A stretch of DNA of 64,000 bases from Desulfomicrobium escambiense DSM 10707 (GTDB lineage Bacteria; Desulfobacterota; Desulfovibrionia; Desulfovibrionales; Desulfomicrobiaceae), in assembly GCF_000428825.1 (NCBI RefSeq), contig NZ_AUAR01000017.1, forward strand, positions 1 through 64,000. The letters are read 5' to 3'. A model generated the notes under the pieces. The model was not told where the DNA came from, ran no database searches, and was given only the letters and a program-made list of their open reading frames with translations. The translations under genes and the position numbers were made by a program. Within the stretch, counting starts at the first letter, position 1; each line of letters starts with the position of its first letter. Positions 41,130 through 63,813 of the stretch are shown here, one piece after another.

Positions 41130-41932
41130 TGCCATCCAAAAGTAGAGACTTCCTTGGGTGAATTTTTCATGAGGAACTCTGCCGGGGTCAAATCGCCAAG
41201 AGACTCGTGGGGCCGCTCCTCGTTGTACTGCCTCAGCCAATTCTCCGTAATTTCTTTCACTTCCGTGAGGGACTTGAACAGGTAGAAGTCTAGGACCTCT
41301 TCCCTGTAGGTCTTGTTGAACCGTTCAATGTACGAATTCTGTGTTGGCTTGCCTGGCTGGATGAACTCCAATGCCACGCCGTTCTTCTCAGCCCAGTCGG
41401 CCAGCAGCACGGAAATCAGCTCCGGCCCATTGTCCATTCTCAAAGGAAGCCCGCGCCAAGCCACTATCCGATCCAAAACCCGCAATACCCTTGCCGCTGG
41501 CAGATTCGTGTCGACTTCGATCGCCAAACACTCACGGCTGAAGTCGTCCAGCACGTTGAAAGTCCTAAACCTTTGACCGCTGGCCAGTGCGTCATGCATG
41601 AAGTCAATGGACCAGCAGACATTCGCGCACGGCGGAACCGCCAGTGGTTGCGGGTTTCGCGAGGGCAGGCGTTTTTTCCCTTTACGCCGGAGATTCATCT
41701 TCAAAAGACAATATACCCGATAGACGCGTTTATGGTTCCAGCGAAAACCGTGTCTGCGCAATACTGCGAACAGCTTGCCGAAACCGTAACGAGGATACCG
41801 GTCGGCCAGTCCCAGAAGCGCTTCAATGATCGGCGAATCATCTCTCGGTTTGGGCTCATACCGGTACACTGTCCGGCTAAGACCCTGCGCAGCGCTTGCC
41901 TGCCGTTCACTAAGGCCATGCTCACTGTGCAA
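41126..41932 (-). CDS. IS3-family (IS407 group) transposase OrfB
   Basis: The catalytic domain of an IS3-family transposase, about 268 residues. It carries the DDE triad in CWSIDFMHDAL, LRMDNGPELIS and NSYIERFNKTYREEVLDF, plus the HTH_21-like segment at the N-terminus. It has no convincing ribosome site; it is read as OrfAB after -1 slippage on the orfA frame (slippery heptamer at 41971-41977). The junction gives KKALRPAEKRDLADF leading into HSEHGLS. Complete and apparently intact. Confidence 0.92.
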   Translation of the reverse strand: MHSEHGLSERQASAAQGLSRTVYRYEPKPRDDSPIIEALLGLADRYPRYGFGKLFAVLRRHGFRWNHKRVYRVYCLLKMNLRRKGKKRLPSRNPQPLAVPPCANVCWSIDFMHDALASGQRFRTFNVLDDFSRECLAIEVDTNLPAARVLRVLDRIVAWRGLPLRMDNGPELISVLLADWAEKNGVALEFIQPGKPTQNSYIERFNKTYREEVLDFYLFKSLTEVKEITENWLRQYNEERPHESLGDLTPAEFLMKNSPKEVSTFGWH

Positions 41933-47558: not shown

Positions 47559-49817
47559 TTACCTATTTCCAAAAAGCGAATTGAAACGTCGCAGCAGGAT
47601 GCCCGGAGTCATACTGATCACGTCTAGCAGCGCAACGAATTCAATTCGTGAAGGTTCCATGTCTTCTAGTGGCCCAGTCGGAGTGTGACGCAAGTTGCGA
47701 CACTTGCCCTGCATAGCACGCCTCAGGAATGCATATACAAGCCGGGCCAGCAGAACGAATAATGTCGACCCTTCGGCGTTTTTCAGACCGTTCAAACGGT
47801 AGTTCCTAGTTACATGGTAGCGGAAACTTGGAGACCACTCGCCGCTGCTACCCGCATGTATGTGACGCACCACCGAAAATGGCTGGAACGCAATCTTCAA
47901 CCCGTTCTTACGCATTCGCCAGGACAGGTCGGTATCTTCATAATACATGAAAAATCGCGGATCAAAACCACCTAGCTTCAGAAAGACATGGCGCGGCATC
48001 AGAACACTGCAGCCGCAAAATGCTTCGCAGTCCCTAACCCCATCGAATTGCCCCCTGTCAGGCTGGTTAATGCCTATATCGGCAGCAGTTCCGTATTCGT
48101 CGAGTTGACTGCCGGCATTGTTGATGACCCATGCTGCAGCACTCCGGAGATCCGTCGGAATATCAATTTCAAATCTGGCAAAATGTTCTGTAAGGCGGCA
48201 AGATCCTAGAGGCACACCCTCGCACTCCACCTCCAATTCCACCTCCTCGCGCCGTCCCGTCACGCTTGCCACAATGTACAAGCGCAAGGGTGTGTCTACA
48301 GCGTCCTCATTCACCGGAAGCATTAGTTCGGCATCACCACATGTCCAGCGCACAACACGCCCACTGGACCATTTCTCTTCATCATAAAAACCACTAACTG
48401 CCAGGGGCTTTATGTAACCGACGCCGCAAATGTGCGTACTGGAAAACTCGATTGCAGCCCCGAGGGCTCGAGTATCGCCCCCCTCTGGTGTGAACACCTG
48501 GCAGCGTAAACGAAAAGACAGAAAACGGTTAAAGAAACGAATCTTGGGCGAAACAGCACCTACCGAATCGCCGTCTGCCGTTCGGCTTACCCATGTACCC
48601 ACTAGAAGTTCAAGCCAATCAGGGTCGACAACAGTATCGTTATTGATCAACGCCAGTAGGGACGATGAGGCTGCTTGGACGCCAAGGTTGTTGCCACCCG
48701 CAAAGCCGAGGTTTCTTTCGCTACGGACCACCTTCACAAAAGGATACGCTTGGCGCAGAAAATCTGCGGAACCATCCGTGGACGCGTTGTCGACGACAAT
48801 GATCTCAGCCGGGGGAAGGCTCTGCACAAGAAGGCTGTCAATCAGGCCGGGGAGAAACGCCAGCCCGTTGAAATTGACAGTGATCACGCTGACTTTGGGA
48901 ACCACACTGCGGAGACAGTTCATCCATTTCGAGTTGCAAGCAACTTGAGTGTCAATAGTAGCTGTCAGGCGCGACACAGTGCATTCGGTCAAGCCTCCGA
49001 GGGCATGCACAAGGGTGTCAGTATCGGCAACCTGCTTGATCCCGTAGATCTCGCGGACCGGCAGTTCGATTCGTCCGCGTTCCTCCCATGTGGAACGATC
49101 CAGGGCAACCACAGTAGCGGAGTTCAAACCGCTATCTTCGATGTTCCGAGAGCAACTCAAGCCCACATAAAGCAAATCCTGGCCGACGCATATACCGCGA
49201 GTGTAGCCGCTCAGCACAACTCTGCGCAGAAGGCGCATTTCCGAATCATATTCACGGATTTCCTTCTGTTCAGAATTGGCGAGCAGCAGTCGCTCCCCGT
49301 CCGGCACCAAGCTGTGGGGTTGGGACAGGCCCTCAATGAGCGTCCGTCCCCCAGTCAACTCGCGAACAAATCCCGCTCCTTCTGTCGCCATTTTGTAGCC
49401 CCGCGTGGAGGCAAATTCTCCGAAAGCAGAATAGACAACGGTACCATGCCACTGGGCTAGACAGTTAATGTGCCAAGAATCATCTGACTCAGAAAAAGTC
49501 CAACGCTGAATTTCGCGACCCTGAGAATCAAGACGAATCACCTCATTGCCCATCGTACCAACGATGTAGCAGGATTCCCCGGCTAAAAGCACATCGTGAA
49601 TATCGTCGAAAAGGACCTGTTCGCTCGCCACCTCCCAAGTATTATCACCGCTCAGAGCTACGGCTCTGGGTTGCAACCCACGGAGCACTGAAGCCCCTAC
49701 CACATCAAGCCCAGTGCAATGGAGGGAATCAATCTTCCTCAGTTTCCCTCCGTGAAGTAAGAAAAACCCACCACCGTTGGGGCAAGATATGAGTAACCTG
49801 TCGAAAATTTTATCCAT
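47559..49817 (-). CDS. DUF4915-GT2 fusion glycosyltransferase (752 aa) with inserted beta module
   Basis: Residues 1-305 resemble the DUF4915/beta-propeller family: LLISCPNGGGFFLLHGG, QPHSLVPDGERLLLANSEQKEI and YTRGICVGQDLLYVGLSCSRN. Residues about 308-680 are a GT2 (VSVITVNFNGLAFLPGLI, DNASTDGS, NLGFAGGNNLGV, INNDT, and FMYYEDTDLSWRM). Between the donor and acceptor parts (about 474-585) sits a beta-rich insert: SGFYDEEKW...RWTCGDAELMLP...LDEYGTAADIG. The ATG at 49817 overlaps the end of wzt by 8 bp. A propeller joined to a glycosyltransferase suggests glycan recognition, but function is unknown. Confidence 0.85.
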   Translation of the reverse strand: MDKIFDRLLISCPNGGGFFLLHGGKLRKIDSLHCTGLDVVGASVLRGLQPRAVALSGDNTWEVASEQVLFDDIHDVLLAGESCYIVGTMGNEVIRLDSQGREIQRWTFSESDDSWHINCLAQWHGTVVYSAFGEFASTRGYKMATEGAGFVRELTGGRTLIEGLSQPHSLVPDGERLLLANSEQKEIREYDSEMRLLRRVVLSGYTRGICVGQDLLYVGLSCSRNIEDSGLNSATVVALDRSTWEERGRIELPVREIYGIKQVADTDTLVHALGGLTECTVSRLTATIDTQVACNSKWMNCLRSVVPKVSVITVNFNGLAFLPGLIDSLLVQSLPPAEIIVVDNASTDGSADFLRQAYPFVKVVRSERNLGFAGGNNLGVQAASSSLLALINNDTVVDPDWLELLVGTWVSRTADGDSVGAVSPKIRFFNRFLSFRLRCQVFTPEGGDTRALGAAIEFSSTHICGVGYIKPLAVSGFYDEEKWSSGRVVRWTCGDAELMLPVNEDAVDTPLRLYIVASVTGRREEVELEVECEGVPLGSCRLTEHFARFEIDIPTDLRSAAAWVINNAGSQLDEYGTAADIGINQPDRGQFDGVRDCEAFCGCSVLMPRHVFLKLGGFDPRFFMYYEDTDLSWRMRKNGLKIAFQPFSVVRHIHAGSSGEWSPSFRYHVTRNYRLNGLKNAEGSTLFVLLARLVYAFLRRAMQGKCRNLRHTPTGPLEDMEPSRIEFVALLDVISMTPGILLRRFNSLFGNR

Positions 49818-51165
49818 TTACACTCCAACTGCACTCGAAGCCGAAATCCACAATTTCCGTCGCACGACTGCCGGGAACCGGCAATACCCTAAACGCAAGA
49901 ACGTCCGCCTTTCTATGCAATACAACTTCTTCGTTGGAACCGTCACAGCCGAACACGCCGGAATTGACAAAATAAACCCCCGGGTTCAGATGGCAGTTGA
50001 AGAAATAATCAACTTCAAAGCCTTCCCCAGCCTCCACTACCGACAACCCTTCGTCTTGGGACGCCGCCGACAGTCCCCCGCCAAGAGGCATGCCGGTACC
50101 TGTCTTGATCAACATCGAGAAACGAACATTTGTAACAGCACGTTCGAAACGCACGTCGTAACGAAAACAGTAACGGCGCCCCCTGATGAGCCCATTTACT
50201 TGGCGTCCGTCCAGAGTGAAGATACGAGCGTCACCAATGTGCGCACCACGAGACTCAAAAACCATCGTACTTTGAGGGATGAAGCCCGAGTCAAAGATCT
50301 CCTCTGAGCCACCACATGCAACCGACTCGCCAAGGATTCCCCCGAAGGGGTCTGCCACAAAAGCTGCACCCTCATCTTCAAAACGGGCGCCTGCGATTGA
50401 AGCACGAATTGCCTCCCGCTTTTGGGCTGGGGCGTAAAGGAGTTTCTGATAGCTACCCACCACCCGTTTTGGCCGTCCGACGGTTAGGAGATCGCCCCCA
50501 TCAAGCAGAATCGCCCGGTCGCAAAGGTCAACGACAGTCACTCCCGAATGGGACACAAACAGAACCGTTGCGCCCGTCCTTCGGATCGCCTCAATACGGG
50601 AAAAGCACTTCCGTTGAAAAAGTTCGTCTCCCACCGACAGCGCCTCATCTACCACCAGTATTAGGGGGTCCACGTTGATGGCAACCGCAAAAGCGAGGCG
50701 CACAACCATACCACTCGAATAGCTTTTGACAGGCTGATCCATAAAAGCGCCAATATCAGCAAAATCGGCAATCGTGTCGAAACGCGCATCAATTTCCGCG
50801 CGGCTAAGACCTAAGACGCAACCGTTTAGATACACGTTTTCACGTCCGCTAAATTCTGGACTGAAGCCACTCCCCAACTCCAGCAGTGCAGCGATTCGAC
50901 CGCTTGTAATGACATGTCCACATGTTGGACGGAGCGTTCCGCAGATCAACTGAAGCAAAGTGGATTTTCCACTGCCGTTACGACCTACAATACCTACGCA
51001 TTCGCCTTTGCGTACCTCAAACGACACATCCTTGAGCGCCCAAAACTCGCGATAATACTGTCTTCGTCCCCGCATAAGCATCTGCATTAAACGATCACGA
51101 GGCTTGTCGTAAATTTGGTAACATTTGCTCAGGTGGTCAACTTTAATGGCTATATCAGAGGACAT
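49810..51165 (-). CDS. wzt: O-polysaccharide ABC exporter ATPase Wzt with C-terminal glycan-binding domain (451 aa)
   Basis: N-terminal ATPase: Walker A GRNGSGKST, signature SYSSGMVVRLAFA, Walker B LILVVDEALSVGD. The C-terminal part (about 255-451) fits the Wzt_C beta-sandwich that recognises the modified non-reducing end of O-polysaccharide in such exporters. The start is ATG 51165, which overlaps the wzm stop by 11 bp; the frame upstream is a shadow. It works with Wzm to export an undecaprenyl-linked glycan. Confidence 0.93.
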   Translation of the reverse strand: MSSDIAIKVDHLSKCYQIYDKPRDRLMQMLMRGRRQYYREFWALKDVSFEVRKGECVGIVGRNGSGKSTLLQLICGTLRPTCGHVITSGRIAALLELGSGFSPEFSGRENVYLNGCVLGLSRAEIDARFDTIADFADIGAFMDQPVKSYSSGMVVRLAFAVAINVDPLILVVDEALSVGDELFQRKCFSRIEAIRRTGATVLFVSHSGVTVVDLCDRAILLDGGDLLTVGRPKRVVGSYQKLLYAPAQKREAIRASIAGARFEDEGAAFVADPFGGILGESVACGGSEEIFDSGFIPQSTMVFESRGAHIGDARIFTLDGRQVNGLIRGRRYCFRYDVRFERAVTNVRFSMLIKTGTGMPLGGGLSAASQDEGLSVVEAGEGFEVDYFFNCHLNPGVYFVNSGVFGCDGSNEEVVLHRKADVLAFRVLPVPGSRATEIVDFGFECSWSVNG

Positions 51166-51973
51166 CAGCAAACCCCTGACGCGTTTTCTGGAACCAAGCG
51201 AACCCCAACCAAGCCACGCAGAGCGTCGCCGAGTAATATCCGACAAGCAGTAGCCAATCAGGCGAATCTCCCCAAAAAAGAACAGCCCTAGTCTGCTCAA
51301 TGGCAGGCATCAGCGGGTTTAACAGCAATATATAACGGTACGCCTCTGGTAGCGCGGTGATCGGGTAAAAAATAGGCGATAAAAACATCAAGACCGTAGT
51401 CAGCAACCCTACGATCTGGGATACATCTCGCAAATATACTCCCAAAGAGGTCAGGGCCCAAGATACACCCATGATGAAAAAGCACAGGGGGAGCAATATC
51501 AGAGGCAGATACAAAACCGTGAGATGCGGCAAACCATAAAGCAAACAATACGCTCCAATCCACACAAATACACTGATCGCGGTATGGAACAAGGCTGCGC
51601 AAAGAGCCACCCATGGTAAAATTTCCAAGGGGAAAATCACCTTCTTCACGTAGTTGACATTGGACAAGATAAGACCCGGAGCTCGACCGAAACATTCGGC
51701 AAAAAGGTTAAACACGATCAATCCTGCGAATAGAACCAAGGCAAACTCGGTCTTAGTGCCTGTTCCGTCACCCCAGCGAGCCTTGAAAACTACGCTAAAG
51801 ACAAAGGTGTACACGGCCAGCATGAACAAAGGATGAAAAAAAGACCAAAAGATACCAAGAAATGATCCGCGATAACGCCCCACGACTTCGCGCTTGGTTA
51901 ATGCCATGACCAGTGAGCGATTACGCCACAGACTGACAATCATCTCATAAGGGGAAACTGAAAAATTGCGCAT
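51155..51973 (-). CDS. wzm: O-polysaccharide ABC exporter permease Wzm (272 aa)
   Basis: ABC-2-type permease: NRSLVMALTKREVVGRYRGSFLG near the N-terminus, then six hydrophobic helices (for example FALVLFAGLIVFNLFAECFGR and LPLCFFIMGVSWALTSLGVYLRD) and the conserved late FLSPIFYPITALP segment. ATG 51973 follows a TTG; AGGA is about 11 nt upstream. It partners with Wzt for export of a completed O-chain or similar polymer. Confidence 0.94.
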   Translation of the reverse strand: MRNFSVSPYEMIVSLWRNRSLVMALTKREVVGRYRGSFLGIFWSFFHPLFMLAVYTFVFSVVFKARWGDGTGTKTEFALVLFAGLIVFNLFAECFGRAPGLILSNVNYVKKVIFPLEILPWVALCAALFHTAISVFVWIGAYCLLYGLPHLTVLYLPLILLPLCFFIMGVSWALTSLGVYLRDVSQIVGLLTTVLMFLSPIFYPITALPEAYRYILLLNPLMPAIEQTRAVLFWGDSPDWLLLVGYYSATLCVAWLGFAWFQKTRQGFADVL

Positions 51974-52003
51974 CAAAAACCGTGTCCTTTCAAAATTAAC
52001 CGC

Positions 52004-53104
52004 TCACAGGTCGTACTGTTGGGCGATCCATTGACGATATTCGCCGGTTTGCACATCGCGCCACCACGTTTCGTTTTCCAAATACCACTGAATCGCCTTG
52101 CGTATTCCCGTGGCAAAGCTTTCCTTGGTGGTGAAGCCCAGGATCATTTTCGTTTTAGTTGCGTCTATGGCGTATCGCCGATCATGCCCGGGCCGGTCGG
52201 TGACAAAGGTAATCAAATTCTCGGCCTTTCCTTTCAGTGCAGACTCGGCTTTGGGAAAAGCTTTCCGATTGCCTTCATCTTGCATGGCTTGATTCATCAA
52301 CCCGCAGATTAGTCTGACAATATCGATATTGGCCCACTCGTTGTCGCCGCCGATATTGAAACACTCGCCAACCTTGTCTGACTTGAGGATCAAATCGATG
52401 CCACGGCAATGGTCTTCCACATACAGCCAGTCGCGTATCTGCAAGCCGTCGCCGTACACAGGCAACGGCCGGTCATCCAGGATATTGGTGATGACCAGAG
52501 GGATGAGCTTCTCGGGGAAGTGATATGGCCCGTAATTGTTCGAGCAGTTGCTGATGGTCACCGGCAGACCATACGTTTCCATGTAGGCCCGAACCAGATG
52601 ATCCGAAGCGGCCTTGCTCGCTGCATAGGGGGAGTTTGGCGCGTAGGGCGTTGTCTCCGTGAAGGCCGGGTCATCCGGCCCCAGAGTGCCATAGACCTCG
52701 TCAGTGGAAACGTGGTGAAAACGAACGGTTCTTTTCCCTTCCCACTCCTCCAGCCAGACCCGGCGGGCGGCCTTCAGCAGGCTGTGAGTGCCGACGATGT
52801 TCGTTTCGATAAAGGCATCCGGCCCGAGGATGGAGCGGTCCACGTGTGACTCGGCGGCGAAATGGACCAGCGTGTCGATCTCGTGCTTGCGGAGCAGTTC
52901 TTCAACCAGCGTCTGGTCAAGGATATTGCCATGCACAAACAGAAACTTGTCCGAATCTTCCAGATCAGCAATATTGGCGCGATTGCCCGCATACGTCAGC
53001 GCATCCAAAACAATTACCATATCATCAGGATATTTCGCCCGCCAGTAGCGGGCGAAATTGGAGCCGATAAACCCTGCTCCTCCGGTGACCAATAGCCGGC
53101 TCAT
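52004..53104 (-). CDS. rmlB: dTDP-glucose 4,6-dehydratase (366 aa)
   Basis: SDR enzyme of dTDP-rhamnose synthesis. It has NAD-binding [44 protein letters not shown], the [15 protein letters not shown] catalytic Tyr-Lys, and [18 protein letters not shown]. Length normal. ATG 53104 overlaps the stop of rmlC by ATGA. Confidence 0.97.
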
Positions 53105-53685
53105 TGTCTCATCTCCATCGCTGTGCGCCGGAAGGAGAACCCATCCGGAAACACCTCAGCCTCGACCAAGCGAGCGCCCTGCAGATCCTTGCCGGAGAGC
53201 ACTGGCTCGCAATCCAGGGGCCAGAGGATATTCAGGTCCGGATCGTTCCAGACAATGGAGCGCTCATGTTCGGGCGCATAGAAGTCCGTACACTTGTACA
53301 TGAAAGCGGCCCGGTCGCTGAGTACGCAAAAGCCGTGCGCAAAGCCCGGCGGCACCCAGAGCATACGCTTGTTCTCGGCCGAAAGCCGCACCCCGACCCA
53401 TTTGCCGAACCACTTCGAGCCGCTGCGGATATCGACGGCCACGTCGAACACTTCGCCCTCTGCAACGCGCACCAGTTTACCTTGGGGCTGACGGATCTGG
53501 TAGTGCAGGCCGCGCAAAATCCCCCTGCCGGACAGGCTGTGATTGTCTTGCACGAAATCAAAATCGATCCCATTCTCGGCAAAGGTCTTACGTTGCCAAG
53601 TTTCCATGAAAAACCCGCGCTCGTCGCCAAAGACACGCGGCTCGATGATCACGACATCGGGGATTTCCGTTTTGATGAAGCGCAC
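53101..53685 (-). CDS. rmlC: dTDP-4-dehydrorhamnose 3,5-epimerase (194 aa)
   Basis: Cupin epimerase: [38 protein letters not shown] (catalytic His), and [14 protein letters not shown] leading to [15 protein letters not shown]. It converts dTDP-4-keto-6-deoxyglucose to the rhamno form. Spaced 3 bp from rmlA. Confidence 0.97.
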
Positions 53686-53688
53686 CGT

Positions 53689-54573
53689 CTACTCCCCGCC
53701 GGACAAAATTTTCAGAAGATAGACGCCGTAACCGCTCTTTTTCTGCTCCTCGCCGAGTCGCCTAAGTTGCGAAGCATCAATGAAGCCCTGACGGTAGGCG
53801 ATTTCTTCCGGACAGGCGATTTTAAGTCCCTGGCGCTTCTCGATGGTCTGAACGAACAGGGAAGCTTCTAGCAGGTTGTCATGGGTGCCGGTATCGAGCC
53901 ACGCGCTACCCCGGCCCAATTTCTCCAGGCAAAGGGCGCCGGATTCAAGGTAGCATCGGTTCACATCCGTGATTTCCAACTCGCCCCGGGCCGACGGCGT
54001 TATGGACTTTGCGATGTCCACCACGGAACTGTCGTAAAAATACAAGCCGGTCACGGCATAGTTTGACTTGGGCTTTTCAGGCTTCTCTTCCAGCGACGTC
54101 ATGTTTCCGTTCGCGTCGAAGCCCGCCACGCCGTATGCCCGCGGATCGGATACGTGATAACCGAAAACCGTCGCCCCGCTTTCCCTGGCCGCGGCCCGGC
54201 GCAGCTTTTCCGACAGCGTGTGGCCAAAAAAGATGTTGTCCCCGAGCACTAGGGCCGAGGGAGCACCATCCAGAAAATTTTCACCAATGATGAAAGCCTG
54301 GGCCAAACCATCAGGAGACGGCTGCTCAGCATACGAGAGCCGAATACCCCACTGGTTCCCATCGCCTAGAAGGCGTTCGAAAAACGGTAGGTCCAAGGGC
54401 GTGGAAATGACCAGGATATCCCTGATTCCCGCCAGCATGAGGGTGCTGAGCGGGTAGTAGATCATGGGCTTGTCATATACCGGCATGAGCTGCTTGCTGA
54501 CCCCTTTGGTCAAGGGGTAGAGCCGGGTCCCGGACCCGCCGGCGAGTATGATGCCCTTGCGTTCGATATTCAC
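53689..54573 (-). CDS. rmlA: Glucose-1-phosphate thymidylyltransferase (294 aa)
   Basis: Nucleotidyltransferase: [17 protein letters not shown] near the N-terminus, [35 protein letters not shown], and [20 protein letters not shown]. It makes dTDP-glucose, the precursor used by RmlB and RmlC. First of the three rml genes. rmlD is not found in the window, so the final reduction to dTDP-rhamnose is either elsewhere or the pathway diverts. Confidence 0.97.
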
Positions 54574-54647: not shown

Positions 54648-55451
54648 TCACTGCACAAGAAACCAGGGGTTGAGAAGATCTTCCTTGTTGTAGCGAAGCT
54701 CATCCCCTGTTTTCCAAGACGTAATTTTTTTTCCGGCGAATTTTACGATGGCGTGTCCGGCCGCGATATCCCACTCCATGGTCGGACCGAGCCGCGGATA
54801 CATGTCCGCGGCACCTTCAGCGACTCGGCATATCTTGAGCGAACTCCCTGCCGGTACGATCTCCACCTTGCCGCGCTCTTCCCGTACCTTTTCAACAAAA
54901 GCGGCAAACTCCGGCGAAGAGTGCGAACGAGAGCCCATGATGACCAAAGCATCCTCACCGCGGCCGGCCAAGGGCAAACGCAATCCCTTCCGGCATAGCT
55001 CGCCGTGGGCTGTCGAGGAGGGATTATCCACCCGAAAGGACCCGACTCCCGCCGCTGCGAAGAACAATTCTCTCGCCACAGGCGCAAAAACTACTCCACA
55101 AACGGGCTCGTGATCGTGGATCAACGCAATGTTGACGGTAAATTCCCCGTTTCGCTTGATGAACTCTTTCGTTCCATCAAGAGGATCCACGATCCAAAGC
55201 GGATTCCAGCCGCGCCGCTCAGTGTATGGAATGCTTCGCCCCTCTTCGCTGAGAACCGAGTACGGGGTCTGCTCCAGAATGTTCATAATCACAGAATGCG
55301 CCGCACGATCCGCTTCGGTCAGGGGGGAGTTGTCACTCTTCAGTTCCACACCGTACGCCGATGCGGCATACACATCCATGATGGCCCGGCCTGCCGTCAC
55401 AGCCGCCTCAATGGCCGCGTCGAGACAGACTCGCAAATCAGCGGGAAACAT
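54648..55451 (-). CDS. cysQ: 3'(2'),5'-bisphosphate nucleotidase CysQ (267 aa)
   Basis: Inositol-monophosphatase fold. Motifs: LSEEGRSIPY, WIVDPLDGTKEFIKRNGEFTVNIALIHDHEPV (metal-binding D-P-x-D-G-T), and the late WDIAAGHAIV. It hydrolyses PAP to AMP. The ATG at 55451 overlaps cysC by 14 bp, with GGAG 7 nt upstream. Placed right after cysC, it would clear PAP produced by a PAPS-using sulfotransferase. Confidence 0.93.
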   Translation of the reverse strand: MFPADLRVCLDAAIEAAVTAGRAIMDVYAASAYGVELKSDNSPLTEADRAAHSVIMNILEQTPYSVLSEEGRSIPYTERRGWNPLWIVDPLDGTKEFIKRNGEFTVNIALIHDHEPVCGVVFAPVARELFFAAAGVGSFRVDNPSSTAHGELCRKGLRLPLAGRGEDALVIMGSRSHSSPEFAAFVEKVREERGKVEIVPAGSSLKICRVAEGAADMYPRLGPTMEWDIAAGHAIVKFAGKKITSWKTGDELRYNKEDLLNPWFLVQ

Positions 55452-56058
55452 GCTCTGGCTCCAGTTGCTCCATGACGAAGGACACAATCCGGTCAACACA
55501 CCCCTGGACCGTGCAGGAATCAGTTTCCACAACCAGCGATGGGCTTAAAGGCTCTTCATAAGGCGCTGAAACTCCAGTGTAATTCTGAATCTTTCCGGCC
55601 CTGGCCAACTTGTACAAGCCCTTTACGTCCCGCTCTTCACAGACCTCCACGGGGCACTTCACGTAAATCTCGAAAAAATCCCTCTCGCCGACAATCTCCC
55701 GCACCTTTTGTCGGTCCCTTTCCAAGGGTGAAATGAACGCGGTCAGGCACAGAATCCCGGCGTCGAGGAAAAGTTTGACCATCTCAGCGATGCGCCGCAA
55801 ATTCTCGGCCCGTGCCTCTGGCGAAAAACTCAAGTCTCCACAGAGGCCGTGACGGACATTATCACCGTCGAAAACATATGTACGCATCCCACTCCGATAC
55901 AGTTCCTCTTCAACCGCATGGGCGAGCGTGGACTTCCCGGATCCCGAGAGCCCCGTAAACCAAAACACCTTTGCGGGATGCCTGTTCAACGATTCTCGGG
56001 CCAAGCGGTCAATTTTGCCTCGGTAGACAACCGTATTTGGCGACTTGAGCATATTCAT
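55438..56058 (-). CDS. cysC: Adenylylsulfate (APS) kinase CysC (206 aa)
   Basis: APS kinase with Walker [31 protein letters not shown], and FISPLERDRQKVREIV. It makes PAPS from APS. In a sulfate reducer the dissimilatory pathway uses APS directly, so a kinase in a glycan cluster next to CysQ suggests sulfation of a glycan or lipid. No sulfotransferase gene was recognised in the window. Confidence 0.94.
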   Translation of the reverse strand: MNMLKSPNTVVYRGKIDRLARESLNRHPAKVFWFTGLSGSGKSTLAHAVEEELYRSGMRTYVFDGDNVRHGLCGDLSFSPEARAENLRRIAEMVKLFLDAGILCLTAFISPLERDRQKVREIVGERDFFEIYVKCPVEVCEERDVKGLYKLARAGKIQNYTGVSAPYEEPLSPSLVVETDSCTVQGCVDRIVSFVMEQLEPEHVSR

Positions 56059-56231: not shown

Positions 56232-58109
56232 TCACAAACTGTGAACCCGTGCATCTTTGGCCGGAACATATTCAGGCACCAACGCTTCAAGCCCCCGTCT
56301 GACAGCCTCGACTTCAAAACACCGTACAGCCTCCAGTAGGGATGACAATGTTGCGTCAATATCAACCGTTGCCCTATCTGATCGCAGCACCATGATTTTC
56401 TCATGCCCAGTCTCAAGCACATCCTCACCCGCCGTAATCAGTTCCTCGTAAAGCTTCTCGCCCGGCCGCAGACCTGTAAACCTGATCTTGATCTCCGCCG
56501 GATCCTTGCCCGAGAGCACAATCAAATCTCGGGCCAGATCCGCGATTCGCACGGGCTTGCCCATCTTCAGCACGAAAATTTCCCCTCCCCGGCCCTGAGC
56601 TCCTGCCTGCACGATGAGCTGGGCCGCCTCGGGGATGGTCATGAAGTAGCGGGTCACTTCGGGATGGGTGACCGTGACCGGACCGCCGCGTTCGATCTGG
56701 TCGCGGAAAAGAGGGATGACCGAGCCCGACGAGCCCAGCACGTTGCCGAAGCGCACGGCCATGAACAATGTCCTGCCGCCCGCGAAACCGTGCATCATGA
56801 GTTCGGCCACGCGCTTGGACGCCCCCATGACATTTGTCGGCCGTACGGCCTTGTCCGTGGACACGAGCACGAAGCGCTCCACCCCGTGCCGGACCGAAGC
56901 CTCCATGACGGTGCGCGAGCCGACGATGTTGTTCGTCACGGCCTGCCAGGGGTTGAGCTCCAGCATGGGCACGTGCTTGTAGGCCGCTGCATGGAAGACC
57001 ACGTGCGGCTGGTGCGTGCGGAACACGGTCTCCACCAGGGGCACGTCCTGCACCTGCCCGAGGACGGGCACGTAACTCGCGAAGCCCCGTTGGTGCACGA
57101 GTTCCATTTCGATGGAATACAGGTTCTCTTCCCCAGCATCGAAGAGCACGAGCTTCCGGGGGCCGAAGCGGATGATCTGGCGACACAGCTCCGATCCGAT
57201 GGAACCCCCGGCACCCGTCACCAGCACCACCTTGTCCGCAAGGTACCCCTTGATCCCAACTTCATCGAGGTGCACTTCCTCGCGGCCCAGCAGGTCCTCG
57301 TAGCGCACGTCGCGCAGGGCCTTGACCGAAACCTTGCCGCTGGCGATGTCAGCCAGGGCGGGCAGCTTTTTGATGCGAACCTGCGCGGCCTCGCATGCCT
57401 CCATGACCCGTCGCAGGTTGTCCCCGCTCTGGGCTGCGCTGACCAGCACCTCTTCGGCCCGGATCATCCCGATCATCCGGCCCAGCTCCTCCAGGGGACC
57501 GAACACGGGAAGACCGTGGATGCGGCGCCCGATGCAAGACGGATCGCTGTCCACAAAACCGACCAAGCTCAGGCCGGAATCCCGGACCTCCAGAATCTCC
57601 TTTGCGATCCTCGCCCCCACGTCATCGGCCCCGACGATCAGGGCTCGCACGCCGGGCGCCGGAGCGCACAGCATCCCCGGCAGCAGGGCCGAGAACACGG
57701 CCCTGGGCCGGAAAGAAAATTCGTACACCGAGCGGATGAAAACCCGCGCCCCGCAGGCGAAGACGAACGCCAGCAGAGGGTCCAGAATGAAGACCGACCG
57801 CGGGTAGCCCTGGAAGTGGGACGCGAAGACGACCCAGATAATGAGCGCCACCTCGGCCATGAACACGGCCCGTGCGATCCGCCACAGGTCCGACAGGCCG
57901 GTGTAGCGCCACATGCCGCGATACAGGCCGGTCAGGAGAAAGAAAGCGAGTTTGAAGGCCACGGCCAGAGGCAGGAGACTCAGCATCTGGCGGAAGAAAT
58001 CCGGGGGGATGTCGAATTCGAAACGCAGCAGGAAGGCGATAACCAGAGCCAGGGCAAACAGCCCTGATTCGCCGATGATCATGATGTAGAAATTGGCATT
58101 GCGAAACAT
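56232..58109 (-). CDS. pglF: UDP-GlcNAc 4,6-dehydratase, PglF/WbpM type (625 aa)
   Basis: Membrane-anchored long SDR. N-terminal membrane helices (about 1-120), a degenerate Rossmann domain (VRALIVGADDVGARIAKEIL), and the catalytic domain with TGAGGSIGSE (298-307). In TNVMGASKR (425-433) Met428 replaces the usual catalytic Tyr, the hallmark of PglF/WbpM/FlaA1-type dehydratases. It forms the 4-keto-6-deoxy sugar for bacillosamine. ATG 58109; a GTG at 58115 with GAGG 6 nt upstream is an alternative start. Confidence 0.93.
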   Translation of the reverse strand: MFRNANFYIMIIGESGLFALALVIAFLLRFEFDIPPDFFRQMLSLLPLAVAFKLAFFLLTGLYRGMWRYTGLSDLWRIARAVFMAEVALIIWVVFASHFQGYPRSVFILDPLLAFVFACGARVFIRSVYEFSFRPRAVFSALLPGMLCAPAPGVRALIVGADDVGARIAKEILEVRDSGLSLVGFVDSDPSCIGRRIHGLPVFGPLEELGRMIGMIRAEEVLVSAAQSGDNLRRVMEACEAAQVRIKKLPALADIASGKVSVKALRDVRYEDLLGREEVHLDEVGIKGYLADKVVLVTGAGGSIGSELCRQIIRFGPRKLVLFDAGEENLYSIEMELVHQRGFASYVPVLGQVQDVPLVETVFRTHQPHVVFHAAAYKHVPMLELNPWQAVTNNIVGSRTVMEASVRHGVERFVLVSTDKAVRPTNVMGASKRVAELMMHGFAGGRTLFMAVRFGNVLGSSGSVIPLFRDQIERGGPVTVTHPEVTRYFMTIPEAAQLIVQAGAQGRGGEIFVLKMGKPVRIADLARDLIVLSGKDPAEIKIRFTGLRPGEKLYEELITAGEDVLETGHEKIMVLRSDRATVDIDATLSSLLEAVRCFEVEAVRRGLEALVPEYVPAKDARVHSL

Positions 58110-58123
58110 GTTCACACCACGCC

Positions 58124-59302
58124 TCACCCGTTCATCGCACGACGGATCACCTGCTCCACAGCGTCGGCGTACCTTTCCATGTCGCACCGGGAAAGTGTCG
58201 GGTGGACAAGGAGCAGAAGGCTTCGCCGCCCCAGATCTCCAGCCACGGGCAAAGGATTTACCGGCGCCAGGCCGGCCTGCACAAAAGCCTGCTCCCTGTA
58301 CATCTCCGGGCAGATACCCGCCAGGCACGGAAAACCCGCCGCATTTACTTCCGCAACGATCCGGTCCCTGTCCCAGCCGGTCCGGAGTCTGGCGGCTTCG
58401 AGAGTAAGGTAAAATTTATAGTAGGCATGATAATAATCCGACCCGGGCACAGCAACGTGCACTCCCGGCAAGGTCTCCAGCCTCTCGGTCAAACACCTGG
58501 CATGGACCCTGCGGGAAGCGACCCAGCCGTCCAGCTTGCGCAGCTGCACCCGACCGATGGCGGCCTGCATCTCGGTCATACGCCAGTTGGTCCCGAACGA
58601 CTCGTGCACCCAGCGAAAACCCGCCGGATGATCAGTACGATGCACAGCGTCCCACTCTTTGCCGTGATCCTTGTAGGCCCAGGCTTTTTTCCAGGCGTCG
58701 TCATCGTCCAGCAGCAACATCCCACCTTCGCCGCCGGTGGTCATGATCTTGTCCTGGCAAAAGGAGAACGCAGCGGCATGGCCGATGCTTCCCACCGGCC
58801 TGCCCTTGTAGCAGGCGCCGTGGGCCTGGGCGCAATCCTCGATGACGAGAAGGCCTCGCTCCCGCGCCAGCTCCATGATCGGATCCATGTCGCAGGGCCA
58901 CCCGACCAAATGCACGCAGATGACGGCCCGGGTCCGAGGCGTGAGGACCCGGGAGATGGTTTTCGCCGAGACATTGCGAGAAATGGGGTCCACATCCGCG
59001 AGCACCGGCACGGCGCCCCGAGCCACTGCGCAGCTCGCCGAGGCGATGAAGGACCAGCAGGTGGTCACCACCTCGTCGCCGGGGCCGATGCCGAAGGCCT
59101 GGAGGGCAAGTTCGAGTGCCACGGTCCCGTTGGCCAAGGAAATGGCGTGTTTTCGGCCGACGTAGGCGGCGAACTCATCTTCGAACCGGCGGCACTCCTC
59201 GCCTGTCCAGTAATTGACCTTGCCCGATTCCAGCACACGCATGGCAGCGAAGCGCTCATCTTCGGCAAAAACAGGCCAGGAGGGAAATTCAGCCTTCAGC
59301 AT
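58124..59302 (-). CDS. pglE: DegT/DnrJ-type aminotransferase, PglE-like (392 aa)
   Basis: PLP sugar aminotransferase: ANGTVALELALQAFGIGPGDEV, VIEDCAQAHGACYKG and FSFCQDKIMTTGGEGGM with PLP-lysine Lys185. It would aminate the C4 of the PglF product. The ATG at 59302 is chosen; upstream open frame is shadow of pglD. It lies between pglD and pglF, spaced 14 bp from pglF. Confidence 0.92.
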   Translation of the reverse strand: MLKAEFPSWPVFAEDERFAAMRVLESGKVNYWTGEECRRFEDEFAAYVGRKHAISLANGTVALELALQAFGIGPGDEVVTTCWSFIASASCAVARGAVPVLADVDPISRNVSAKTISRVLTPRTRAVICVHLVGWPCDMDPIMELARERGLLVIEDCAQAHGACYKGRPVGSIGHAAAFSFCQDKIMTTGGEGGMLLLDDDDAWKKAWAYKDHGKEWDAVHRTDHPAGFRWVHESFGTNWRMTEMQAAIGRVQLRKLDGWVASRRVHARCLTERLETLPGVHVAVPGSDYYHAYYKFYLTLEAARLRTGWDRDRIVAEVNAAGFPCLAGICPEMYREQAFVQAGLAPVNPLPVAGDLGRRSLLLLVHPTLSRCDMERYADAVEQVIRRAMNG

Positions 59303-59919
59303 GACGCCTGAAACCTCACTATTCGAGCTGGGGAGCCCACGACAACCGCATTGTCCGGGATATCCCGCAACACGGTCGCTCCCGCGCCAACCATGACGTT
59401 GGTCCCAATGCGGACGCCCTGTATGACAACGCTGCCGATCCCCACCCACGTGCCGTCGCCAATCGTGACGCCACCGCCGATATTCGCGCCAGGGCAAACG
59501 TGCACAAAATCCCCCACACGACAATCGTGATCGATCGTAGCTCCGGTATTGACGATGCAATGCCGACCTATATTGCTGTCAGGTTGCACCACAGCCCCTG
59601 CGCAAATCACGGATCCCTGGCCGATCCGGGCCGTCGGATCAACCCAGGCCGTCGCATGGATGGCTTCAACCCAACAAGCGTCACGGCACATCCCGACTAC
59701 CTGTCTTCTGATCATGCAATCGCCTATCGCGACAATGGCTTGTCCCGCACGCCGCGCAAAATCAGCAACTGTCCCAAGAACGGGCGTATCAGACACGGCC
59801 CTGCCGACCAACTCCTCATCATCGTCATAAAAACCAAGGACAGCCGTCTGCGACGAACGCAAAACTCCAAGGACAACCTTTCCGTGGCCACTGGCCCCAA
59901 GAATGCAGACTCCGTTCAT
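59296..59919 (-). CDS. pglD: NeuD/PglD-type sugar N-acetyltransferase (207 aa)
   Basis: N-terminal nucleotide-sugar-binding half (CILGASGHGKVVLGVL) and C-terminal left-handed beta-helix hexapeptides (IGQGSVICAGAVV, IGRHCIVNTGATIDHDCRVGDFVHVC). The His in DHDC is the expected catalytic base. It acetylates the 4-amino sugar to UDP-diNAcBac. It overlaps both neighbours by a few bases. Confidence 0.93.
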   Translation of the reverse strand: MNGVCILGASGHGKVVLGVLRSSQTAVLGFYDDDEELVGRAVSDTPVLGTVADFARRAGQAIVAIGDCMIRRQVVGMCRDACWVEAIHATAWVDPTARIGQGSVICAGAVVQPDSNIGRHCIVNTGATIDHDCRVGDFVHVCPGANIGGGVTIGDGTWVGIGSVVIQGVRIGTNVMVGAGATVLRDIPDNAVVVGSPARIVRFQASC

Positions 59920-60527
59920 TCACCTCTCCGTAAATCGCCCGAACCGGTGAACCTCGGCATGGTCTCGTGCCCTTCCGAACTGATCCCTTGCCGCAGAAAA
60001 ACCGACCGTACCGTCAGCCACAGGATCTTCAGATCCAACCATATACTTTGGTTGTCCACATACCAGACATCAAGAGCGAACCGCTCCTCCCAGCCAAGGG
60101 CATTGCGCCCGTTGACCTGGGCCCACCCCGTGATACCGGGCTTCACTTCGTGACGCCGCGCCTGTTTCGGCGAGTACAGCGGCAGATACTCCATCAGGAG
60201 GGGACGTGGGCCGACGAGGCTCATGTCTCCTGTGAGCACGTTCCACAACTCGGGCAACTCATCCAAGGAGGTGGACCGCAGGAAACGCCCGAACGCGGTC
60301 AGTCGCTGCGAATCCGGCAGAAGGTTCCCCCGCCCGTCCGTGGCCCTCGCCATGGTTCGGAACTTGATCATGTGGAACGGATGCCCCCCCAACCCCGGCC
60401 GGGTCTGCACGAATAGAACCGGGCAGCCCATGGCGGCCCACACAGCCAAGGCGACCAGCACGAGCAGCGGCGCCAGCGCGAGCAGCAACCCCGCCGAAAC
60501 CAGGATATCGACGATCCGCTTGATCAT
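59916..60527 (-). CDS. pglC: Sugar-1-phosphate transferase, PglC-type (203 aa)
   Basis: Monotopic phosphoglycosyl transferase: N-terminal helix, then PGLGGHPFHMIKFRTM, STSLDELPELWNVLTGDMSLVGPRPLL, and KPGITGWAQVNGRN. Compact (about 200 aa), unlike the large WbaP-type enzyme at 35053. It would transfer diNAcBac-1-P onto undecaprenyl phosphate to start the N-glycan. The ATG at 60527 overlaps pglB's stop. Confidence 0.93.
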   Translation of the reverse strand: MIKRIVDILVSAGLLLALAPLLVLVALAVWAAMGCPVLFVQTRPGLGGHPFHMIKFRTMARATDGRGNLLPDSQRLTAFGRFLRSTSLDELPELWNVLTGDMSLVGPRPLLMEYLPLYSPKQARRHEVKPGITGWAQVNGRNALGWEERFALDVWYVDNQSIWLDLKILWLTVRSVFLRQGISSEGHETMPRFTGSGDLRRGE

Positions 60528-62680
60528 CTGGCCCGATACACCCGAGCCCACGGGAACCTGTCATCGACCAGTTCGAAGTGGGGTTCAAAGGAACGAGGAT
60601 CGGCGATGAGCATTTGAATCATCATGGAACGGTACATTTTCGAGTCCATGAGGAAAACCTGCCGGGAGAGCTGGTTGATGACAGCATGCGAACCGGCACC
60701 CTTGGGCCAGTCGAAATGCCGCGTGCCGTTCTGCTCCACCACGTCGAGGGAATCCACGGGCACGCCGTTGCCGGACACGACCATAGTGCCCGTGGCCGTA
60801 TCGATACGGACTTCGCCCTTCACCTGCTGTATCTTGCCGGGATTCGACGTGCCCGAAACGAGATCCCAGTTACCGTAGTAGCCGATCCACCCGCCCAATC
60901 GCAGATTCTCCCAGGACACGACCAGATACTGGGCTGGCAGGTCGGCCGGAAAGTCCTGCTTTGTGAAGGCCAGGTCAGCAACGAAGGCAGTTGCGTTCTG
61001 CGCCCCCATGGCTCGCAGGGACGCTATGGGATCGGCCCAATAGTACTTTGTCGGAGCTTGGTCGGACGCGTTGTTCCTCTGGTCCAGCGTAACGAATTTC
61101 ATCAGCTGCGCAGCCTGCAGGGGCGAGGAAGTGCTGTGCACCCGGGCTAGGGGGTATAGCCACTGGCCATCATGAGAGCCGCCATCGCCGAATGTCGCGC
61201 GTTCGGCATAGTATTGACCGGCGTATCCGTAATCCCACCATTGCCACAGACGCGCGTCAGGCTCGGTCCTGTCGCGCAGGTCCACAAAGGTCTGCGCGTA
61301 CAGCTTCGGAAGTACAGGCACAGGCTGCATGTCCTGCATGAATGCGCTGGCCGGCCAGAAGGCGAAACAGGCCAGCAGGAGCTGCGCTATCCAGCGCCGT
61401 CCCTGATTCTGCCCGAGCAGACGCATCATTTCGGCAAGACCGAATCCGAACCCCACCCCCAAGGCGACCCCGCCGAACATGGAAAAACGGTTACCAAGCT
61501 TCACGCTGGCCAGACCCAACCCGAGGAATGGCAAAAAGAGCAGGAGCTGCGGCCTTCGGAAGACCGCGAAGACATATCCCGCAAGGCCTATGACGAACAG
61601 GACCCAGTTCCCCGCCATTCTGTCCGCCACCTGGCCCCACGGCAGATTCTGCGCTTCGCGCACGCTTTGGGCGATGGCCGGAAGCTGCAGGGTGCTGGCG
61701 TTGGAACCGATCTCCACGGAATCAAGCTTGGAGTAGGTCGCAACCGCTTGCAGATATTTTAGAACCATCTCGGGCAACCCCGCCCAGATCATGACACATA
61801 TTGCGGCCACACCGACAACGGCTGGCGCAGCCTTGCGTTCAAGCAAATCGGGCCGACCAAGCAGTATTCCTCCGAGCGCCAAGCCGACCCCCCAACCGCC
61901 CCAACCGCCGAAAGCCAAAGCATAGATCAGCAGCAATCCCGACCATGCTTTCACACCGCCGGATTTTGGTCCGAGCACGAAGGTCAAGATGGCAGACGCT
62001 CCGAGAACAGCCAACAGCAGGCTTCCGCCCTGGGTATAAAAAGAGATATTGATCGCACCGAGAGCGCCAGAGAGAACGGCATAGGCCAAAGACTGCCGGC
62101 TCGATTTGGCTTCTTCCATCCCTCGCCACCACCAGACGTGGCTGGTTTCCGAAGCCAACCACGCCGTCACCGCGCAGGTGAAGGCGAGGGGAAAAAACAG
62201 GGAGACCAAGTCCGTATCACAAAAACCCAACCTGGTGCGCACCAGATAGCCCAGGCTCGACCCGGCGGTCAGGGCGAAGATGACTCCGGCTTCGGTCATG
62301 CGCAGCGTCCGTGCCAGAAGGCAGGCCGGGACGGCCAGCCACGGTACCGTCAGCACCGGCAGCCAGAAGCCGATGGTCCCGAGGGGCAAGCCCGTTATTT
62401 CATGCAGCCACCTGATGCCTATGGAAAAACGCGAAGCCGCATAGGCCCCGACCCCTTTGGCCCCCGCCAGCCAAGCATAAGCGTCATGGGTGGCCATGAG
62501 GGGCTCCTGCCCAATAAAAAATGGCTCTGCCTGCCATGCGCCGTATTCGATCAGACGAATGGCCGCATTCAAAAAAAAGCCCAGGGCCAGGGCCAGAACC
62601 AATTCACCGTTTTCCGACATCTCCCAAACGGTCTTGCCCTTTCCTTCGACGCGCACTGTTGCGCCATCCGATTTGCGCAT
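60524..62680 (-). CDS. pglB: STT3/PglB-type oligosaccharyltransferase (718 aa)
   Basis: Large membrane GT-C enzyme with roughly a dozen or more helices and a soluble C-terminal domain. Key features with the ATG at 62680: first-loop THDAY (Asp66), CDTD (Asp155, Asp157), the SVREAQ element (Glu342, the SVxE motif), and WWDYG (481-485) in the C-terminal domain. These are the catalytic and sequon-binding elements of N-linking OSTs. It transfers lipid-linked glycan to Asn in D/E-x-N-x-S/T or N-x-S/T; the acceptor preference is not readable here. It overlaps pglA and pglC. Confidence 0.95.
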   Translation of the reverse strand: MRKSDGATVRVEGKGKTVWEMSENGELVLALALGFFLNAAIRLIEYGAWQAEPFFIGQEPLMATHDAYAWLAGAKGVGAYAASRFSIGIRWLHEITGLPLGTIGFWLPVLTVPWLAVPACLLARTLRMTEAGVIFALTAGSSLGYLVRTRLGFCDTDLVSLFFPLAFTCAVTAWLASETSHVWWWRGMEEAKSSRQSLAYAVLSGALGAINISFYTQGGSLLLAVLGASAILTFVLGPKSGGVKAWSGLLLIYALAFGGWGGWGVGLALGGILLGRPDLLERKAAPAVVGVAAICVMIWAGLPEMVLKYLQAVATYSKLDSVEIGSNASTLQLPAIAQSVREAQNLPWGQVADRMAGNWVLFVIGLAGYVFAVFRRPQLLLFLPFLGLGLASVKLGNRFSMFGGVALGVGFGFGLAEMMRLLGQNQGRRWIAQLLLACFAFWPASAFMQDMQPVPVLPKLYAQTFVDLRDRTEPDARLWQWWDYGYAGQYYAERATFGDGGSHDGQWLYPLARVHSTSSPLQAAQLMKFVTLDQRNNASDQAPTKYYWADPIASLRAMGAQNATAFVADLAFTKQDFPADLPAQYLVVSWENLRLGGWIGYYGNWDLVSGTSNPGKIQQVKGEVRIDTATGTMVVSGNGVPVDSLDVVEQNGTRHFDWPKGAGSHAVINQLSRQVFLMDSKMYRSMMIQMLIADPRSFEPHFELVDDRFPWARVYRAR

Positions 62681-63813
62681 CAACTCACCCCATACAGTTC
62701 AAGATATTGTTGCACCACATGCCGCACGTCGAATTCACGCACCGCCTTTTCGCGACCGGCCCGGCCCATGCGTTCCCGCAGTGCCGGGTCGTCGAGCAGG
62801 GTCGCAATCCCCCTGGACAGAGCCTCGCTGTCGCGTACCGGGACGAGGATTCCATTAATTCTGTCCTCGACCACTTCCCGGCATCCAACCGTGTCCGTCG
62901 TCACGATGGGCTTGGCCATAGACGCGGCTTCGAGCAGCGTCCGAGGAACTCCTTCCCGGTAGCTGGGCAGCACGTACACGTCGCACAAGGCGGTCAGTTC
63001 CGCAATATCGGTCCGCGGCCCAAGCCAGCGTACATGAGGCTGATTCAGCAGATATTCTCGTGAAGCCGAAGAAGGATTTCCTAAGTCGACGTCTCCCGCC
63101 AAAAGAAAGACCGCATCAGGATACTGGATGCGAAGCATTCTCGCGGCACCGATGTATTCCGCCAGCCCCTTGTGCCAAATGGCCCTGGCGACCATGAGCA
63201 CTACTCGGGACGCGGAAGCAAGTCCAAGCTCTCGGCGAACCGACGACGCATCATAAATTTCAGGGCTGAACATCTGCGTGTCGATGCCCACGCTGCGAAT
63301 GATACGCATCTTGGCCTGCGGGACCAGCCTGTGAGAGCGAAAGTGATCTGCGTCGTCCCGGTTGACGAAGACCGTGCTGTCGGACAGGCGGCAGGAAATG
63401 GCGTAAAGCCCCTCCATGCAGACCCTCACGCAGCGGTTGCGCAGGGAGTCCTCCACGTAGAAAGAGCCCAACCCCTCGACGAGGTTGTAAATAACCGGCA
63501 CCCGAGCCATCCGACCGGCAAGAGTTCCATAGATGTTAGGCTTGGCGGTAAACGTATGCAGAACATCGGGTCTGTGCTGACGTAGCAAGGACGCTAAATG
63601 AAGAATGACGGGATATTCACGCAGAGGGTTGAGGCTGGATCGGTCGACGTCGTAGTCGACCGCCGTAACACCGTGCTCTGCGAAACGATCAAACACATCC
63701 CCCCTGGGGCACAAGGCTATTGCCTCGTGCCCTCGTGCGATCAGGGCTTGCATGATAGGCAGACGGAACAAGAACAAATTAAGATCGAGATGAGAAAGGA
63801 AAACAAACTTCAC
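62680..63813 (-). CDS. pglA: GT4 glycosyltransferase, PglA-like (377 aa)
   Basis: GT-B enzyme: FLSHLDLNLFLFRLPIMQALIARGHEAIALCP, HTFTAKPNIYGTLAGRMARVPVIYNLVEGLGSF, and the donor motif YREGVPRTLLEAASMAKPIVTTDTVG (E-x7-E). The start is GTG 63813, with GAGGAAGGG upstream. By position it probably adds the second sugar to the undecaprenyl-linked diNAcBac, but the sugar is not known. Its stop overlaps the OST start (TGATG). Confidence 0.88.
   Translation of the reverse strand: MKFVFLSHLDLNLFLFRLPIMQALIARGHEAIALCPRGDVFDRFAEHGVTAVDYDVDRSSLNPLREYPVILHLASLLRQHRPDVLHTFTAKPNIYGTLAGRMARVPVIYNLVEGLGSFYVEDSLRNRCVRVCMEGLYAISCRLSDSTVFVNRDDADHFRSHRLVPQAKMRIIRSVGIDTQMFSPEIYDASSVRRELGLASASRVVLMVARAIWHKGLAEYIGAARMLRIQYPDAVFLLAGDVDLGNPSSASREYLLNQPHVRWLGPRTDIAELTALCDVYVLPSYREGVPRTLLEAASMAKPIVTTDTVGCREVVEDRINGILVPVRDSEALSRGIATLLDDPALRERMGRAGREKAVREFDVRHVVQQYLELYGVS

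Follow-up and report, generated by a model that had tools for sequence, protein, structure and literature searches.

Does the run of pgl-like genes close to the end of this stretch encode a working route for attaching a glycan to asparagine, and which sugar would touch the protein? The stretch, called the window here, comprises 64,000 nucleotides of Desulfomicrobium escambiense DSM 10707 (genome G000, 3.78 Mb) and corresponds to bases 1-64000 of contig C15, which is 99,355 bases long. We are highly confident that the run is a PglB-type operon for N-linked protein glycosylation, carried by a member of the Desulfomicrobiaceae. N-linked glycosylation outside the relatives of Campylobacter is thinly studied, and the system class of this locus is already known; what is new is a difference in initiation genes within the genus that suggests gene exchange, described below.

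The pglA-F run and its oligosaccharyltransferase

The run lies on the minus strand, from position 63813 down to 56232, and consists of six open frames in the collinear order pglA-B-C-D-E-F, as the initial annotation had described it. It opens with pglA (62680..63813, GTG start), which encodes a GT4 glycosyltransferase recognized by Pfam Glycos_transf_1 and a match in the Protein Data Bank (PDB), and continues with pglB (60524..62680), an STT3/PglB-type oligosaccharyltransferase (OST) of 718 residues assigned by Pfam, PDB, fold and motifs. The third gene, pglC (59916..60527), encodes a monotopic phosphoglycosyl transferase (Pfam Bac_transf and PDB), pglD (59296..59919) an N-acetyltransferase of the NeuD/PglD family (NCBIfam TIGR03570, Pfam PglD_N and PDB), pglE (58124..59302) an aminotransferase dependent on pyridoxal phosphate (PDB 7l7x), and pglF (56232..58109) a membrane UDP-GlcNAc 4,6-dehydratase, identified by its match to the PDB WlaL protein and by the motif STDKAVRPTNVMGASK.

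The genes are tightly packed, with overlaps of one base between pglA and pglB (TGATG), four bases between pglB and pglC (ATGA, provided that the ATG of pglC is its start), four between pglC and pglD (ATGA) and seven between pglD and pglE. A GTG at 60551 is also possible as the start of pglC; we prefer the ATG at 60527, because the protein then opens with MIKR, and KR is found at that point in its best PDB relative too. Between pglE and pglF, by contrast, 14 bases intervene. Judging from the spacing, pglA to pglF are likely to form a single transcript. A terminator scan placed no site in the 173 bases between pglF and cysC and was uninformative, as its total of two sites lay below the shuffle mean of 4.6.

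The OST is the sole STT3 match in the whole genome, passing both Pfam PF02516 (STT3; 29.2 bits, cut-off 24.5) and PF21436 (STT3-PglB_core; 63 bits, cut-off 23), and its best PDB relatives are the PglB structures 5ogl and 6gxc (E 1e-26). An AlphaFold2 model based on an alignment of 10 OSTs (mean pLDDT 77.9) comes closest to PglB 5ogl, with a TM score of 0.79, followed by 6gxc and 3rce and then by archaeal and eukaryotic OSTs. Counted from the ATG at 62680, the protein carries D66, D155-T-D157, S-V-R-E342 and W481-W-D-Y-G485, exactly where the initial annotation had put them. An alignment shows the catalytic Asp and Glu in all of its 10 OSTs, among which the catalytic and WWDYG residues are invariant except for V340 and R341 of SVRE. 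In a larger set of 64 OSTs of the order (the window OST and 63 others, leaving out that of G006, which came as two matches), D66, D157, E342, W481, W482, D483 and G485 are each found in 64/64 and D155 in 63/64, the lone exception being row L071, where Ala replaces the first Asp of the DxD motif. The residue at 484 varies, being Y in 40 OSTs, W in 17 and F in 7. Gene identities, gene order and the catalytic residues of the OST are established, and its fold is predicted. By family and modelled fold the OST is of the PglB type and is predicted to transfer a glycan to Asn.

Bacterial N-glycosylation with PglB has been published (PMC4894442, PMC6025236), and the initial annotation was right to treat the Desulfovibrio system as a known class. 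One report describes OSTs of D. desulfuricans, D. gigas and D. vulgaris, deltaproteobacterial enzymes like the one studied here, that function in E. coli with N-X-T sites as acceptors, as well as N-linked HexNAc3 (three N-acetylhexosamines) on D. gigas HmcA and a relaxed use of N-X-T acceptors (PMC4894442). Residue R354 of our OST aligns with R331 of 5ogl, and the Arg is kept in 43/64 OSTs. We considered R354 as a predictor of an acidic sequon and rejected it, since the published Desulfovibrio enzymes do not obey such a rule: the modelled cavity has no Arg in DvPglB and keeps one in DgPglB (PMC4894442), and R354 thus does not settle the sequon.

Relatives of the OST are common: across the order, 194 of 297 genomes have a match, and so do 41/61 near genomes (own genome counted) and 11 of the 16 same-genus genomes. 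Those in named records (12 loci) come mostly from Desulfovibrionales, Desulfomicrobiaceae and Desulfohalobiaceae assemblies. The same-genus genomes lacking a match (G003, G004, G008, G011 and G014) have assemblies broken into 240 to 510 contigs, and pglF is kept in G003 (85% identity) and in G014 (91%, with a stop); given this fragmentation and the retained pglF, absence of the OST from those genomes is not demonstrated. Another member of the order, G023, carries three full-length OST genes, on its contigs C17, C26 and C28. Our literature search, which covered few subscription papers, found nothing on Desulfomicrobium with PglB.

Predicted route from UDP-GlcNAc to the glycan

Compared with PDB proteins by phmmer, PglA is closest to the alpha1,3-N-acetylgalactosamine (GalNAc) transferase acting on undecaprenyl diphosphate-linked N,N'-diacetylbacillosamine (diNAcBac-PP-Und; E 5e-89, 302 bits; the runner-up protein has E 2.7e-17, 66 bits), and it scores far under the cut-offs of the PglH and PglJ models; the glycosyltransferases upstream were scanned by Pfam only. 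PglC is closest to the diNAcBac-1-phosphate transferase (E 3.5e-66, 226 bits, compared with E 4.8e-35, 125 bits for WbaP), and PglF to the WlaL protein (E 1.4e-95, 324 bits, compared with E 9.8e-48, 166 bits for CapD), which is C. jejuni PglF. The best PDB relatives of PglA, PglC and PglF are all Campylobacter proteins. PglD passes NCBIfam TIGR03570 (NeuD/PglB/VioB acetyltransferases; 228.5 bits, cut-off 160.8) and in PDB matches a perosamine N-acetyltransferase best (6.5e-38), with a UDP-N-acetylbacillosamine N-acetyltransferase at 2.8e-19. The best match of PglE is 7l7x (E 4.4e-141, 474 bits), presumably the Psychrobacter 0638 enzyme. That enzyme is described as acting on the PglE substrate at the 4-amino-sugar step (PMC8040287). 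The earlier identification of PglC, PglD, PglE and PglF homologues holds against the solved proteins and NCBIfam.

PglF, PglE, PglD and PglC occur together at the locus, and the following route can be proposed. PglF, PglE and PglD would convert UDP-GlcNAc into UDP-diNAcBac, PglC would place diNAcBac-phosphate onto undecaprenyl phosphate, and PglA would add alpha1,3-GalNAc to the resulting diNAcBac-PP-Und. The first two sugars of the glycan are thus predicted to be GalNAc-alpha1,3-diNAcBac, as in Campylobacter, though the genes are a mosaic.

The locus extends past the window edge, with further genes upstream. Beyond the window, upstream of pglA and on the same strand, Pfam identifies GT2, GT11 and second GT2 enzymes (C15:63877-66495; GT11 at 3e-36), a methyltransferase and a Wzx-type Polysacc_synt (PF01943) protein, the flippase candidate (C15:67702-69198), with fcl and gmd further upstream. 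The gmd product scores 608 bits against a cut-off of 415. The GT2, GT11 and GT2 enzymes may extend the glycan, GT11 probably with fucose supplied via gmd/fcl; in PDB, the GT11 protein finds two weak klotho chains only (E about 1e-3), which we did not use. The Wzx-type protein would then bring the lipid-linked glycan to the periplasm, where the OST would transfer it to Asn of N-X-S/T sites in exported proteins. Between the Wzx gene and fcl lie several small nucleotidyltransferase/HEPN-like open reading frames (ORFs; L002:9470-12020), by eye possibly an MNT/HEPN toxin-antitoxin system.

A MOP-type flippase lies upstream of the OST and on its strand in 7 of the 11 same-genus genomes that have an OST: a PF01943 protein in G000, G001, G002, G010, G013 and G015, nearest to the OST in G000 (about 5.6 kb) and farthest from it in G002 (12.4 kb), and a MurJ-family protein about 8 kb upstream in G012, the one genome in which that family was looked at. 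Among these 11 genomes, transporters of the ABC kind were searched with the MsbA/PglK-like protein of G015 as query; in the nine genomes other than G015 and G007, G000 included, the best matches listed cover mainly the ATPase part. In G000 the likeliest flippase is the Wzx-type protein.

According to the initial annotation, the gene order is close to that of the Campylobacter pgl locus, in which A and B are swapped. All functions from PglA to PglF are present here, and PglC, PglA and PglF have solved proteins of the diNAcBac pathway as their best PDB relatives. The locus differs in having a Wzx-type protein upstream, while G000 has no full-length relative of the G015 PglK/MsbA-like protein among the matches listed, and the GT11 and methyltransferase genes suggest another outer glycan.

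Possible exchange of initiation genes within the genus

The 11 same-genus genomes with an OST were sorted by gene order into two types before any tree was made. In type 1 (6/11: G000, G001, G005, G006, G009 and G012), pglC and pglE stand behind the OST and are followed by pglF; pglD is present in G000, G001, G006, G009 and G012, that is 5/6, and missing in G005, which has ATP-grasp (PylC-like_N, ATPgrasp_Ter) and HAD genes in its place between pglC and pglE (L037:6487-8095). The locus on C15 is very probably a complete-looking N-linked glycosylation operon and a clean example of this type. In G009 the contig breaks off near the beginning of pglF, and another contig carries an almost complete pglF from its base 1 onward. 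At L003:2912-4161, G009 also has a second C-terminal piece of the OST (30 residues, 83% identity), some 1.2 kb past the OST and directly before pglC, as if an insertion at the OST-pglC junction had duplicated the end.

In type 2 (5/11: G002, G007, G010, G013 and G015; L038-L042), a short-chain dehydrogenase/reductase (SDR) and a polytopic transferase stand between the OST and pglF. The pair of G002 belongs to Pfam PF01370 (SDR) and PF00953 (transferase), unrelated to the monotopic pglC, and its counterparts in the other four genomes are 77-89% (SDR) and 68-86% (transferase) identical to it. No NCBIfam model scored over its cut-off for this pair; by comparison with the WbpM-WbpV-WbpL pathway, type 2 may be read as an N-acetylquinovosamine (QuiNAc) or N-acetylfucosamine (FucNAc) start. 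Beyond the genus, the SDR and PF00953 genes of G027 immediately precede the OST, with pglF following it, and the other 53 places examined give a mixed pattern: pglC- and pglE-like genes around the OST in G059, a PF00953-like gene 2-3 kb off on the opposite strand in G029, G033, G037 and G049, a pglE-like gene (about 30% identity) nearby in several further places, and in many none of the queries close by. As the query proteins came from this genus and from G027, distant homologues would escape them.

A species tree was built from rpoB, gyrB and uvrA of 17 genomes (LG+G4; rpoB missing for G001, G009 and G020). It groups G001 with the five type-2 genomes (100/100) and G000 with G014, and rejects the six type-1 genomes as a single clade (approximately unbiased test, p 8e-8); on this grouping, one switch of type suffices. 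In a tree of rpoB only, without G001, G004, G009 and G020, in which no rpoB was found, G000 groups with type 2 and not with G005, G006 and G012. The OST tree (14 rows, G006 left out) places type 2 in one clade (100/100) on a long branch, rejecting a clade of G000, G001 and type 2 (p 3e-5) and, more weakly, one of G001 and type 2 (p 0.018). In the pglF tree, a single type-1 clade is rejected (p 4e-62) and type 2 likewise does not form one; G001 stands beside G015 and G002, and G000 beside G014 and G003, matching the species tree. The different histories of OST and pglF fit an exchange of an OST-plus-initiation module beside pglF.

That the sugar touching the protein is a swappable module in this genus, with OST and initiation genes exchanged as a unit beside a resident pglF, is a proposal that we make tentatively and rate slightly below even chance. 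The module would exist in three variants, namely pglB-C-D-E for diNAcBac; pglB-C with ATP-grasp/HAD genes instead of pglD, for an acylated variant as in neisserial glyceramido-acetamido-trideoxyhexose (GATDH); and the OST with an SDR and a polytopic PF00953 transferase, for a QuiNAc- or FucNAc-type sugar. Against the proposal, long branches lead to type 2 and to the G027 outgroup, the two clades tested on the OST tree were chosen after the species tree had been seen, and several tests were uncorrected. Faster change of the OST after a local cassette swap would also set type 2 apart.

Linking sugars beyond diNAcBac are known in bacterial N-glycans, as H. pullorum PglB1 handles a HexNAc reducing end according to two reports (PMC11164674, PMC6025236), the first of which also describes the reducing-end sugar as restricting the use of PglB in glycoengineering (PMC11164674). 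In Neisseria, the mutually exclusive genes pglB and pglB2 set the reducing-end sugar, with an ATP-grasp variant replacing the acetyltransferase (PMC11130364). G005 resembles this arrangement, with ATP-grasp and HAD genes at the position that pglD takes in the other type-1 loci; the neisserial system is O-linked, whereas here the initiation genes vary in step with the clade of an N-linked OST. A search of titles and abstract starts, aimed only in part at this question and with subscription papers mostly uncovered, found no report of within-genus exchange of initiation genes in an N-linked system. If the module proposal is true, OST clade would be matched to linking sugar, and the genus would offer natural paired N-OSTs preferring different reducing-end sugars. 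Orthologous OSTs beside two unrelated initiation systems are natural pairs in which to ask whether the OST adapts to the linking sugar.

Downstream genes and competing readings

Downstream of pglF and on the same strand follow cysC (55438..56058), an adenylyl-sulfate kinase over the cut-offs of NCBIfam apsK and PRK03846 with a putative role for the glycan, and cysQ (54648..55451), a 3'(2'),5'-bisphosphate nucleotidase over that of TIGR01331, whose start is inferred (the frame is open from 55532). Next come genes assigned by eye: an rmlA-like glucose-1-phosphate thymidylyltransferase (53689..54573; an 87% homologue in the same place in G001, L004), an rmlC-like epimerase (53101..53685; 81% in L004), an rmlB-like dTDP-glucose 4,6-dehydratase (52004..53104; 83% in L004) and a wzm-like ABC exporter permease (51155..51976), with homologues behind the pgl genes in L004 (G001), L012 (G006) and L036 (G012). 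The ABC exporter ATPase gene wzt (49810..51300) is assigned by Pfam ABC_tran and Wzt_C, and its true start is probably downstream. The initial annotation had called the contiguity of rhamnose genes, O-chain exporter and cysCQ with the pgl genes unusual. These genes do adjoin, but the arrangement recurs: G001 has cysC, cysQ, rml and wzm/wzt behind pglF in identical order (its cysQ only 33% identical), and G006 and G012 have wzm-wzt directly behind pglF. The neighbourhood is common to part of the genus.

Several observations weigh against N-glycosylation by the proposed route. In the fold alignment the OST shares just 19% identity with 5ogl, and at 104.4 bits it falls far short of the cut-off of 1300 for NCBIfam NF050801 (ProtGlycPglB), which marks it as a divergent member of the PglB kind and not that equivalog, so that its preferences may differ. 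Its model is weak (pLDDT <50) at residues 317-329 and 335-344, around E342. The nearest relatives of PglD and PglE are not the Campylobacter enzymes, PglE being nearer another aminotransferase, and the fcl product scores 435 bits, below its cut-off of 500. As to the flippase, there is no PF01943 protein near the OST in G005, G006, G007 and G009 (the contigs of G006 and G009 reach about 2 kb upstream). G015 has a full-length ABC transporter about 7 kb downstream of the OST (L038:18331-20000), which resembles MsbA (204 bits) and PglK (202 bits, cut-off 1000) to the same degree and lies far under both cut-offs; a near full-length relative of this transporter is encoded in G007, some 15.6 kb upstream of the OST there. 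Finally, wzm and wzt share the gene row with the pgl genes, and some sugars could go to lipopolysaccharide (LPS).

This last point is the core of an alternative in which the diNAcBac genes chiefly supply an LPS chain that Wzm/Wzt export, with the OST drawing on that or some other glycan only secondarily. The rml, wzm and wzt (Wzt_C) genes do follow in the same direction, wzm-wzt coming straight after pglF in G006 and G012 and behind cysC-cysQ-rml in G001, and Psychrobacter has this sugar in its O-antigen (PMC8040287). We nevertheless regard the alternative as unlikely, because pglC shares bases with the OST gene, the best match of PglA is the GalNAc transferase acting on diNAcBac-PP-Und, and in the type-2 relatives a different OST clade comes with different initiation genes. 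That the locus is decayed or silent is more improbable still: the extra OST end piece in G009 and a transposase ORF in the window, seen by eye, would suit it, whereas all six frames are open here and every catalytic residue is present. The OST of G006, although it came as two matches, shows no sign of damage, since its frame stays open across a stretch of 100 N. Lowest of all, and barely credible, we place O-linked glycosylation from the same diNAcBac genes; Neisseria does make diNAcBac for O-glycans (PMC11130364), but family and fold both mark the transferase here as an STT3/PglB protein. N-glycosylation by the PglB-type OST remains the reading that we prefer.

The presence of cysC and cysQ beside pglF in a sulfate reducer suggests a supply of 3'-phosphoadenosine-5'-phosphosulfate for sulfation. 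By Pfam, 0/20 region proteins match a sulfotransferase (other sulfotransferase families were not searched), and the single PF13469 sulfotransferase match in the genome sits on another contig (G000:C3:5209-5868); no link of rhamnose or sulfation to the N-glycan was found at the locus. Further along the window, positions 47559-49817 encode a protein of 752 residues in which a DUF4915-like N-terminal part, far below the cut-off of TIGR03032, is joined to a GT2 domain. The transposase ORF, at 41126-41932, is by eye of the IS3 type and lies inside the polysaccharide gene region.

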